This document shows positions 21,100 through 24,617 of a stretch of DNA of 31,979 bases, piece after piece. The translations under genes and the position numbers were made by a program. The first letter of the stretch is position 1. The number at the start of each line of letters is the position of its first letter. This stretch comes from a virus. The notes beneath the pieces are model-generated. The model was given only the letters and a program-made list of their open reading frames with translations, did not search any database and was not told the DNA's origin. Where the stretch lies: the IMG/VR virus record IMGVR_UViG_3300032006_000046, positions 1 through 31,979 of that record, one strand, 5' to 3'.

Positions 21100-21445
21100 T
21101 GTCGGAACACTAAAAACCGACACAAACCCAAGGGACGACCGACTTAAGAGAGGCGAGCCCGAACTCAGTAAAACAACCGCGTCACAAACGCAGAGCTGGA
21201 AACCAGAATTGAAGAGTACAGCCGAGCAAGTAGAGTACAGGGGCGACAACGGTAGCGAATCCGAAAGGGCTAGCGAGTTCAGAGATGAACGATGGGGGCT
21301 GAGTCAAAACGAACGTGATGAGCGTTCATCTAAATTAAAACATTGAAAGCCGTTACTCATTAGAAAAGTTTACACGAAAGGTAACGGCTAACCGCTAAGT
21401 TGGCAACTGACGGTCTGAGGATAAAGCCAGAAACACGAAAGCCTA
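21100..21445 (+). ncRNA. Long structured leader RNA of the early operon (candidate)
   Basis: About 350 bases with no ORF between the divergent region and the amidoligase gene. It is rich in A and G with many short perfect stems: TGTCGG/CCGACA (21100-21122), GCGT/ACGC, CTGG-AAA-CCAG, CC-GAAA-GG inside AGC/GCT, GTTCA-GAGA-TGAAC (21277-21290), GAACG/CGTTC (21311-21326), and AGCCGTTAC/GTAACGGCT (21348-21389). A possible long-range pair ACTCAG/CTGAGT (about 21163 with 21299) frames the centre. GNRA-type loops (GAAA, GAGA) point to selected RNA structure. No known RNA class is recognised. It ends at the ribosome binding site AGGAGGG. Confidence 0.6.
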
Positions 21446-21460
21446 TAGGAGGGCAAGAAC

Positions 21461-22462
21461 ATGGGAACAGTATTTAATCACAACCGAACATACGGAGTTG
21501 AGCTTGAGGTCAACACAAGCTATGGAGCCAACACTTTGGCAGACGCAATCAACGCCGAGTTCACCGCCAGAGGGATTTCCGCTCAATGTCAGGTGCAGAG
21601 TTACAATCACCGAGCATCAAGCAGTTGGAAAATCGTTTCCGATGCGACAGTTAGAGGGTGGGAAGTAGTAAGCCCGATTCTCAAGGGGCTTGAGGGTAAG
21701 GAAGAGATTGACGCAGTATGCGCCGCTCTCAGAAGTCTTAACGTCACAACTGGCGTACAGACAGGGATGCACGTTCACCACGATGCCAGAGGATTAACCG
21801 CCAAACAGATTGGTGGAACGTTCGGAGCATACGCCGCTTTCCAGACACTCCTCAACTACGGAGTTTCACGCAGTCGCAGAGGCAGGGAACAGGGTGGATA
21901 CAACACCATCGCCAACTGGAACAGAATCACCTCTAACGGCTCTGATAACTACAACCGAAATTACACATACGGCATCACCGCTGATACAACATTCCGAGGT
22001 CCTAGAGCAGACAACGCCAGCGCATTCATCTCCTCTATAAACAGGAAAATTGGAATGGCTAGGGAGTGTTCAATCAGCATCGGTTCTTCCCTCTCACGCC
22101 ACGGGACAATCGAGTTCCGACAGCATCAGGGAACAACCAACGCTACCAAAGTTTGGACATGGGTTTTAATCACTCAGTCCATCATCGAGCGACAGGTTCA
22201 AAATCGGGTTTCTTTCCCCAAGCCCGTATATGTAGAGATTGCCAATGGCAAGTCCGTTGCCAAAGGCGATTTCATACGGTTCAAGAGATTCATCGCAATC
22301 TCCCCTCGGTACAACGGTGGAGACACCGCTACCACCGAGCCTTATGTTTGGGCATTCAAGCAACTCTATAAGAACATCAAAAAGTTCGCCCGACAAGACG
22401 GGATAACCGATACCAAGGATATCGGTAAGAACCAAAGCAATCACAACTACGTCAGACCGTAG
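21461..22462 (+). CDS. Amidoligase (COOH-NH2 ligase) family enzyme
   Basis: 333 residues; ATG with TATAGGAGGG 7 bases upstream. Motifs of the Amidoligase_2 family: TYGVELEV (10-17), SWKIVSDATVRGWEVVSPIL (55-74), TGMHVHHDA (101-109) and HGTIEFRQHQGT (214-225). The Glu and His residues in these are the expected ATP/metal ligands. The family forms amide bonds between a carboxylate and an amine or ammonia; in phages and bacteria it is often encoded with class II glutamine amidotransferases, as here (23164-24024). The substrate is unknown. It is the first gene of the early operon, and a hammerhead ribozyme starts one base after its stop codon. Confidence 0.87.
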   Translation: MGTVFNHNRTYGVELEVNTSYGANTLADAINAEFTARGISAQCQVQSYNHRASSSWKIVSDATVRGWEVVSPILKGLEGKEEIDAVCAALRSLNVTTGVQTGMHVHHDARGLTAKQIGGTFGAYAAFQTLLNYGVSRSRRGREQGGYNTIANWNRITSNGSDNYNRNYTYGITADTTFRGPRADNASAFISSINRKIGMARECSISIGSSLSRHGTIEFRQHQGTTNATKVWTWVLITQSIIERQVQNRVSFPKPVYVEIANGKSVAKGDFIRFKRFIAISPRYNGGDTATTEPYVWAFKQLYKNIKKFARQDGITDTKDIGKNQSNHNYVRP

Positions 22463-22463
22463 A

Positions 22464-22528
22464 TGTCGAAACTCTCCCATCGCTGGGAGAGTCCGAGGTT
22501 GAGTGGCTCTCACCTCGCTGATGAGACA
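22464..22528 (+). ncRNA. Type II hammerhead ribozyme 1
   Basis: All core elements are present in type II order. Stem II 5' strand TGTC (22464-22467); GAAA (22468-22471); stem III of 7 bp plus A15.1-U16.1 (CTCTCCC / GGGAGAG, loop ATCGCT); C17 at 22493 with cleavage after it; stem I CGAGGT/ACCTCG (22494-22499 with 22512-22517), with an inner GAG/CTC stem; CTGATGA (22518-22524); stem II 3' strand GACA (22525-22528). The 10.1-11.1 pair is G-C as in the consensus. It starts one base after the amidoligase stop and ends before the ribosome binding site of the next gene. Confidence 0.93.
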
Positions 22529-22562
22529 AGCCAGAACAATTACCTTTAAGGAGGGTACAGAA

Positions 22563-22868
22563 ATGGAAGTATTTATGGAAGATTGGAACGCCGCTGAAAA
22601 GGAAGTACAGAATGCTTGCTTTGGTGAGTTATCTGCACGCATGAAAGCATACGACCCAAAGAACGGTTGGAATGCAACTGGTCGGTTCTTTATTGACCAC
22701 GGTTTTGTAGGAAATGAAATTGCCATGATTTCTGGCGGTGAACACGTTGGCTGGACAGTCATCTCCCATCGAAATTTAGATTGGACAGAAACCTACTGCG
22801 ATTATCTTGAAGACGCCATCCAAGACGTTTTAGATGGCTACAACGCAATGCCACAAGGAGGCAATTAA
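22563..22868 (+). CDS. Hypothetical acidic protein in the ribozyme-bounded cistron pair
   Basis: 101 residues from ATG 22563 with TTAAGGAGGG upstream; an in-frame start 20 codons earlier would lie inside the ribozyme, so it is rejected. The protein has MEVFMEDWNAAEKEV, then GWNATGRFFIDHGFVGNEIA and a Trp/Tyr/Asp-rich C-terminal part (NLDWTETYCDYLEDAIQDVLDGY). It looks like a compact acidic alpha/beta protein. No family recognised. The next gene starts immediately after its stop codon. Confidence 0.8.
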   Translation: MEVFMEDWNAAEKEVQNACFGELSARMKAYDPKNGWNATGRFFIDHGFVGNEIAMISGGEHVGWTVISHRNLDWTETYCDYLEDAIQDVLDGYNAMPQGGN

Positions 22869-23078
22869 ATGGGAAAGATAAAAGAGTTACAAATCTATAA
22901 AACACAATGCTGTGGATGTATGAGAAGCATCTGTTGTGGAGCAGATGAACACCCCGATGTTGAAGGGTTCTGTTTCGGGTGTAATGAAGCCACGACATTT
23001 GAAAAGTTCTGCCCTGAGTGCGATGGCACAAACCTCAACGAGGACAGCACTAAATGTTTCGATTGCCAATCCGAATAA
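22869..23078 (+). CDS. Cys-rich zinc-ribbon protein
   Basis: 69 residues; ATG follows the upstream stop directly and has AAGGAGG within the end of that gene. It carries ten cysteines in pairs: QCCGCMRSICC (14-24), CFGC (35-38), CPEC (48-51) and CFDC (63-66), consistent with two zinc-ribbon knuckle sets. Such small early proteins often bind nucleic acid or host proteins. The TAA stop is inside stem II of the second hammerhead ribozyme, so translation termination and ribozyme folding compete for the same bases. Confidence 0.8.
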   Translation: MGKIKELQIYKTQCCGCMRSICCGADEHPDVEGFCFGCNEATTFEKFCPECDGTNLNEDSTKCFDCQSE

Positions 23079-23138
23079 TCGAAAGGCTCCCGACCACGGG
23101 AGTCTCTGCGAGGATTGCCCACCTCGTACTGATGAGAT
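23078..23138 (+). ncRNA. Type II hammerhead ribozyme 2
   Basis: Stem II 5' strand ATC (23078-23080); GAAA (23081-23084); stem III of 8 pairs including A15.1-U16.1 and one G-T (GGCTCCC / GGGAGTC, loop GACCAC); C17 at 23106 with cleavage after it; stem I of 7 pairs (TGCGAGG / CCTCGTA, one G-T, loop 23114-23121); CTGATGA (23129-23135); stem II 3' strand GAT (23136-23138). Stem II has only 3 pairs (a fourth, T23076-A23139, needs a bulged A), so it is weaker than in ribozyme 1. The core is otherwise complete. It sits between a stop codon and the ribosome binding site of the amidotransferase gene. Confidence 0.88.
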
Positions 23139-23163
23139 AGGGCGAATATAAAGGAGGCACGAT

Positions 23164-24054: not shown

Positions 24055-24096
24055 CAACTATAAAACGGAAATACAGCCTTATAGGAGGGCAAGACA

Positions 24097-24378
24097 ATGA
24101 GTTCAACATTTACATATATGCCGTATCACCAGAGCCGAAAAGATTTACGCAGAGGGCTTTGTACAGGGTGCGGCAATAAATACTTAATCATTAAAAATGG
24201 AGCTGGTGGGGTTTTTCTAAAGTCAAGAAGAATCAGGGTCGCTAATGTTTATTACTCATACTGGTACAGAGAGAACACGGAGGGAACTCTTCAACAGATT
24301 TTTTATTCACCATGCTGTAAGTCCCCGATGGCTAGAACCCGCATAAGTGTCGGTGATGTTTTTAGGGTCATAGAATGA
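24097..24378 (+). CDS. Small zinc-binding protein, unknown function
   Basis: 93 residues; ATG with TATAGGAGGG upstream, in a leader nearly the same as that of the amidoligase gene (AGCC, ATAGGAGGGCAAGA). The protein has CTGCGNKYLIIKNG and later SPCCKSPMARTR, so four cysteines that could hold one zinc. The remainder is basic and beta-rich (RIRVANVYYSYWYREN). No family recognised. The next short ORF overlaps its stop as ATGA. Confidence 0.75.
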   Translation: MSSTFTYMPYHQSRKDLRRGLCTGCGNKYLIIKNGAGGVFLKSRRIRVANVYYSYWYRENTEGTLQQIFYSPCCKSPMARTRISVGDVFRVIE

Positions 24379-24485
24379 AGATAAAAATCAATCATCTGAA
24401 TCCCTATCGTGATAACTTTGGAACACGTTGGAAAGTTTTTGATTTTAGGGGCTTTACAAGATTAGTAGTCTGGACATATTTCTAG
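24375..24485 (+). CDS. Short basic protein (36 aa), coupled to upstream gene
   Basis: 36 residues, MKIKINHLNPYRDNFGTRWK then VFDFRGFTRLVVWTYF. The ATG overlaps the previous stop (ATGA) and has AGGG eight bases upstream. The pattern of basic and aromatic residues is not random-looking, but the frame is short and without family. It is followed by a structured non-coding stretch. Could be a real microprotein or a chance frame. Confidence 0.45.
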   Translation: MKIKINHLNPYRDNFGTRWKVFDFRGFTRLVVWTYF

Positions 24486-24490
24486 GGGTT

Positions 24491-24590
24491 AGGCTCAGAG
24501 CGGCAGGGGTTGGTCAAAACCTGGGTGGTGAAAATTCGCCACAATCGACCAGCCCCTGCGTCCCACGCCATGCGATTGTCTGAGCAATCG
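24491..24590 (+). ncRNA. Structured RNA with pseudoknot upstream of the 253-aa gene (candidate)
   Basis: The gap 24486-24617 has no gene but a clear fold. A 13-pair stem (24503-24515 with 24547-24559, one G-T) closes an inner 5-pair hairpin (TGGTG/CGCCA). Downstream is a hairpin CGATTG-TCTGAG-CAATCG (24573-24590). Its whole loop can pair with the upstream CTCAGA (24494-24499), with one more pair possible, giving a kissing/pseudoknot fold or two alternative states. It ends 13 bases before the ribosome binding site AAAGGAGG. The class is unknown; a translational switch is likely. Confidence 0.65.
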
Positions 24591-24617
24591 TAAATCTAAT
24601 AAAGGAGGTAAAAAACT

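Follow-up and report, generated by a model that had tools for sequence, protein, structure and literature searches.

Two hammerhead ribozymes in a single operon of a tailed phage probably serve as intercistronic punctuation, by which polycistronic RNA would be cut in cis at each gene junction. Judged from the genomes compared, such punctuation seems to be a common means among phages of splitting a long message into separate ones. The motifs, their conservation, their placement with respect to the neighboring start and stop codons, their same orientation and their variable number are all read from sequence. The strict placement in two hammerhead types and in many phages, unlike that of terminators, suggests that the hammerheads work at gene junctions and not in circle making.

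Two type II hammerheads in one phage operon

The window, meaning the whole stretch of DNA that was analyzed, is a 31,979-base tailed-phage record of IMG/VR (IMGVR_UViG_3300032006_000046). Structural genes (portal, terminase, tape measure and head protein) are located on the minus strand, and a divergent operon on the plus strand, from 21461, consists of an amidoligase gene, a 101-codon gene, a 69-codon Cys-rich gene and a class II glutamine amidotransferase gene. As seen in Table 1, a hammerhead is found on either side of the two short genes.

Table 1. Hammerheads, genes and predicted fragment of the window, and hammerheads of two isolate phages (given by locus).
Feature	Position	Strand	Basis and remarks
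Amidoligase gene, 333 codons	21461-22462	+	Pfam PF12224, E 1.8e-19; PHROG 2443, E 1.4e-24
HHR1, type II hammerhead	22464-22535	+	RF02276, 34.7 bits; motif scan and shuffles; predicted cut after 22493 (GUC)
Predicted 613-nt fragment	22494-23106	+	From the two cleavage sites; stem I hairpin at 5' end, stem III hairpin at 3' end
101-codon gene	22563-22868	+	ORF; ribosome-binding site AAGGAGG directly 5'
69-codon Cys-rich (zinc-ribbon-like) gene	22869-23078	+	ORF; stop abuts HHR2
HHR2, type II hammerhead	23078-23146	+	RF02276, 35.0 bits; predicted cut after 23106 (CUC)
Glutamine amidotransferase gene (class II), 286 codons	23164-24024	+	Pfam PF13522, E 2.9e-13; aligned with L012, L021 and L023
Hammerhead, phage D3112	L535 2489-2550		Isolate locus reading
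Hammerhead, phage JBD30	L536 2482-2543		Isolate locus reading

HHR1 and HHR2 lie on one strand, 613 nt apart, with phage genes around them. Both display the features of type II hammerheads, namely three helices, CUGANGA, GAAA, an NUH cleavage triplet and an open stem II. Moreover, in both of them loop I forms a pseudoknot with the segment 3' of stem II, a feature that the majority of type II hammerheads share. In HHR1, stem II is formed by UGUC (22464-22467) and GACA (22525-22528), GAAA occupies 22468-22471, stem III has 9 pairs starting from A22471-U22492, and the GUC triplet ends at 22493; stem I (22494-22499/22512-22517) is bulged, the core CUGAUGA is at 22518-22524, and the pseudoknot pairs UGGCU (22504-22508) with AGCCA (22529-22533) over 5 pairs. 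In HHR2, stem II consists of AUC (23078-23080) and GAU (23136-23138), GAAA is at 23081-23084, stem III has 9 pairs including one G-U, and the CUC triplet ends at 23106; stem I has 7 pairs, the core CUGAUGA is at 23129-23135, and the 6-pair pseudoknot UUGCCC (23115-23120)/GGGCGA (23140-23145) differs in sequence from that of HHR1. The earlier note had placed the cuts of two ribozymes after 22493 and 23106, and its coordinates were right, with core, helices and pseudoknots intact in both.

Rfam searched at the gathering threshold gave no match in the window, and both ribozymes emerge only in E-value mode; the cut-off of RF02276 (Hammerhead_II), 37 bits, is a database threshold and no chemical criterion. 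The model covers both copies end to end, HHR1 with an E-value of 8.6e-6 (201 bases searched) and HHR2 with 0.0012 (whole window searched). Compared to the family, they are alike in full length, in the open stem II, and in the pseudoknot that joins loop I to the 3' tail, but both copies are 2 bits low, HHR1 having a bulged stem I and HHR2 a CUC triplet and the G-U pair of stem III. Counted against the punctuation reading are these low scores and the minimum-energy folds, in which, with the pseudoknot ignored, alternative pairings are favored by 5-6 kcal/mol. After dinucleotide shuffling of the window (300 rounds, plus and minus strand scanned), no motif with at least 19 paired positions and only 2 motifs with at least 12 were observed; the window itself has two motifs with 19 paired positions. 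A third type II hammerhead was not found in the motif scan of both strands of the window.

Between the amidoligase start and the amidotransferase start, prediction gave neither a sigma-70-like promoter nor a convincing terminator on the plus strand; therefore, a single transcript across these genes is plausible. The predicted cuts would release from it the 613-nt RNA of Table 1, for which the earlier note had the correct sites and length. It had also claimed that this RNA encloses exactly the 101-residue and the Cys-rich 69-residue genes, and this agrees with the open reading frames, each of which has a GGAGG-type ribosome-binding site. Its further statement, that four genes would be divided among three mRNAs with all ribosome-binding sites kept, holds for both outer genes as well; the amidotransferase starts 57 nt past the predicted cut of HHR2. 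Searches of Pfam, PHROG and NCBIfam gave no matches for the two short genes, and matches of the 69-codon protein in PDB were not significant. A relative of the 69-codon gene, 46% identical, exists in L036/L038 (tblastn).

Hammerhead number varies among related genomes

Scans of IMG/VR proteins with the amidoligase or the amidotransferase alone gave no relatives, so TerL was chosen as query after these had failed, and the terminase search yielded 80 related IMG/VR loci. The amidotransferase profile found three close relatives only, and a blastn search of the operon against isolate phages gave no matches. Amidoligase and amidotransferase are both present in four genomes, the window included. The interval between them holds 0, 1, 2 or about 4 hammerheads, with differing intervening genes, and a hammerhead stands directly 5' of the amidotransferase in 3 of the 4. 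Directly after the amidoligase stop, L012 (IMGVR_UViG_3300025131_003951) has one hammerhead and then the amidotransferase, with no gene in between. The interval of L021 (IMGVR_UViG_3300025131_000111) holds three type II hammerheads at 38.2, 43.5 and 44.0 bits, all above the Rfam cut-off, and a type III-like core 5' of them, with open reading frames in between. L023 (IMGVR_UViG_3300030329_000927) has several genes in the interval, in which no hammerhead was found, and this counts against the punctuation reading. Additionally, a type I hammerhead lies just 5' of the amidoligase in L017, the leader of which holds a type III-like core recognized by eye, and in the distant relative L232 type II hammerheads occur both before and after the amidoligase.

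The hammerhead adjoining the amidotransferase is orthologous in the window, L012 and L021, with a DNA identity of 82-85%. The HHR2 orthologues of L012 (39.2 bits) and L021 (43.5 bits) both pass the RF02276 cut-off. Among the three sequences, four pairs of the HHR2 stems changed on both sides while 100% of cells stayed paired, compared to 0-1 in slid controls, and the core is unchanged. No orthologue of HHR1 was found among the relatives. The search of related genomes for paired hammerheads, which the earlier note had suggested, did not recover the pair as a unit, one copy being found in L012, about four in L021 and none in L023. Because the number of hammerheads and the enclosed genes vary among these relatives, the repeated unit, as read from the genomes, is one ribozyme per gene junction and not the pair.

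Hammerheads adjoin stop codons

Two IMG/VR samples, selected by pattern and thus non-random, were scanned for type I, II and III motifs with simple helix rules. Genes were called as uncurated open frames, and distances were taken from the end of the upstream frame (at least 60 codons) to the first paired base of the ribozyme. Among the matches listed in these two samples, hammerheads were present in 127 loci, and 54 loci had at least 2. All copies are on one strand in 53 of these 54 (among the matches listed), and the median spacing is about 650-700 nt, so the 613 nt of the window is typical. Once clustered into independent cases, type II motifs lie within 3 nt of the upstream stop codon in 94 of 139 among the matches listed, compared to 3.6 after random shifts; type I motifs, likewise clustered, do so in 22 of 62, likewise among those listed, compared to 1.5. 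Terminator-like hairpins near stop codons of the same loci are within 3 nt in only 4 of 24 cases, with a median of 16.5 nt, whereas in this comparison 105 of 140 type II hammerheads are (both counts among the matches listed). As to the 107 adjacent hammerhead pairs among the matches listed, 46 enclose a single interval-filling open reading frame and 37 others have a stop that abuts the next ribozyme.

The window fits this placement. The amidoligase stop codon (22460-22462) ends 1 nt ahead of HHR1, and stem II of HHR2 overlaps the stop of the 69-codon gene (through 23078) by 1 nt. It can be seen that the order of stop codon, ribozyme and next start, as found in these genomes, is a positional rule sharper than earlier descriptions of such phage hammerheads. 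Part of the abutment could come from the compactness of phage genomes. A pattern search of GTDB genomes gave mostly chance matches and 4 loci with hammerheads, and yielded no host or prophage sample.

Isolate phages show the same placement. At all 10 isolate-phage loci that were read against deposited gene calls, the hammerhead adjoins a stop codon, with a gap of 0 nt in D3112, JBD30, B23, PeaS-P1 and RC1, about 1 nt in YPCBV-1, KS10, RcapMu and Jevington, and 10 nt in Paedore; nine are thus at 0-1 nt. The motifs of PeaS-P1, KS10 and RC1 were read by eye from sequence after the strict scanner had missed them, and the abutting copy of Jevington differs from the copy matched by blastn. The Mu-like phages (D3112, JBD30, KS10, RcapMu, B23, YPCBV-1, PeaS-P1 and RC1) are alike in having one type II hammerhead 0-1 nt past an annotated stop, followed by the next gene. 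Where the gene upstream carries a name, it is HU-like (KS10 and RcapMu are loci L540 and L541), and the gene content is unrelated to the operon of the window. The type II consensus matches 76 Pseudomonas phage records, and a second consensus gave no blastn matches in phages; among the bacteria infected by hammerhead phages are Pseudomonas and other Gram-negatives. Several type II motifs also occur within about 5 kb, six in Streptomyces phage Jevington (L542) and four in Paedore (L544). The arrangement shared by D3112 and JBD30 makes the role directly testable in laboratory phages.

A proposed role in operon processing

HHR1 and HHR2 would punctuate an early-type phage operon, and each of them occupies the gap from the upstream stop codon to just ahead of the next ribosome-binding site. 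The operon RNA would cut itself in cis soon after synthesis, 25-31 nt past the stop and 57-69 nt ahead of the next start. In type II hammerheads stem I and stem III are both closed hairpins; the upstream mRNA would end in a GC-rich hairpin and the downstream mRNA would begin with a hairpin, open reading frames and ribosome-binding sites remaining intact. The product ends are expected to be 5'-OH and cyclic phosphate. Neighboring genes would be uncoupled in translation and decay, with presumed consequences for expression, and genes may be gained or lost at one junction without disturbing the next gene, as among the relatives.

In mitochondria, structured tRNAs abut open reading frames and mark the cuts in polycistronic RNA. 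By analogy the phage hammerheads may act similarly, although the mitochondrial tRNAs are cut by RNase P and RNase Z and the hammerheads are predicted to cleave themselves. The idea of operon processing is itself already published. Perreault et al. (2011; PMC3088659, Figure 3) described multiple hammerheads, including type II, that flank single genes or short blocks in prophages, and proposed that transcripts are processed to mRNAs the length of a gene or an operon and to circles. Three of their tandem arrays cleave in vitro and one cleaves in vivo in E. coli, and a halovirus 5' end was mapped at most 3 nt from a hammerhead site. Their clusters share with the window at least two same-strand hammerheads flanking phage operon genes, but the enclosed genes differ. 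The term "stop codon" is absent from the text of that paper, and neither the stop placement, the IMG/VR counts nor the operon of the window was found in it. Nor was the placement rule found in the literature searched, which lay mostly outside the subscription journals. The arrangement in the window is of a kind known since 2011, the stop-codon rule being the part that the literature searched did not describe. According to a 2017 review (PMC6155905), bacterial and phage hammerheads flank small open reading frames of unknown function and their role is an open question in the field, on which the placement rule bears.

The punctuation reading may be extended. If stop placement were functional in general, a terminating ribosome would gate folding and cutting, and trimming after the last codon would give hairpin-capped single-gene mRNAs; we regard this extension as possible but rather improbable. 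A narrower form of it, in which GAAA and the 5' part of stem III stay hidden under the ribosome that terminates at the adjoining stop, so that folding and cutting are delayed until termination, is unlikely, and the same is true of its corollary that the cutting rate would report translation of the upstream gene. In all 94 abutting type II hammerheads among the matches listed, the first core box is 2-7 nt past the stop, a distance that falls within the footprint of a ribosome at termination, and type I copies, with a different part of the motif beside the stop, follow the same trend. However, the ribozyme is able to fold before the first ribosome comes, and compactness alone can explain the abutment.

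Cleavage may instead act as a switch of decay or termination, the 5'-OH downstream RNA being attacked by a 5' exonuclease of the RNase J type, which would lower downstream expression or release the polymerase. The 5'-OH products of the glmS ribozyme riboswitch are RNase J substrates in Bacillus, which favors such a switch. But the downstream fragment of the phage operon has the closed hairpin of stem I at its 5' end and retains its strong ribosome-binding site, and hammerhead phages infect Pseudomonas and other Gram-negative bacteria, many of which are not known to have an enzyme of the RNase J type. This reading, too, seems improbable.

It is very unlikely that HHR1 and HHR2 are a paired device that jointly frees one bicistronic mRNA, possibly circularized by ribozyme or host ligation. 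The geometry of the 613-nt RNA, with predicted 5'-OH and cyclic phosphate ends, is in principle ligatable, and a chimeric stem II of 2 pairs is possible from its ends. Retrozymes and viroid-like circular RNAs are similar in that a pair of hammerheads frees a unit several hundred nt long; unlike these, the phage unit is protein-coding, its two type II ribozymes are unlike each other, and circles and mobility are unsupported. The same interval in the window and its relatives holds 0, 1, 2 or about 4 ribozymes. Of the earlier note's design, the processing of one operon is supported, and the pair as a two-gene excision device is not. The pairing of the circle is no better than that of the outer join, in the window with 2 pairs versus 4, and in 71 adjacent pairs among the matches listed with 2.45 versus 2.32 pairs, shuffled partners giving 1.79. 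Chimeric stem II pairing therefore lends no specific sequence support to the suggested circle, and circle formation or splicing by ribozyme re-ligation is not favored. Spliced or circular products of other phage hammerheads were sought, and none was detected (Perreault et al. 2011, PMC3088659). Least probable of all is that the motifs persist by chance as relics or passengers without a role. For this speak the number varying among relatives and the absence of hammerheads in L023, and against it stand the compensatory changes of HHR2 around an unchanged core and a stop-codon placement that is tight, far from chance and unlike that of terminators.

Other noncoding elements of the region

A conserved noncoding leader RNA is located 5' of the amidoligase (window 21109-21460; L012 4827-5447, minus strand). 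Over 149 nt it has 94% DNA identity to L012, while the encoded proteins are about 49% identical. A 65-nt part of it recurs in L021 (5460-5523, minus strand), 3' of the amidoligase and beside the type III-like hammerhead. The leader has no match in Rfam, and a further hammerhead hidden in it was unsupported by the motif scan and by examination of the leader. Additionally, an intergenic element with GGTTAGGCTCAGAGCGG, a hairpin and GCGATTGTCTGAGCAATCG is placed ahead of ribosome-binding sites in the window (24485-24592), in L015 (632-712, minus strand) and in the L012 leader, and looks like another structured RNA. A translation leader, AGCCT(T)(A)TAGGAGGGCAAGA, is repeated before ATG at 21437-21463 and 24074-24099 of the window and at the amidoligase starts of L017 and L012.
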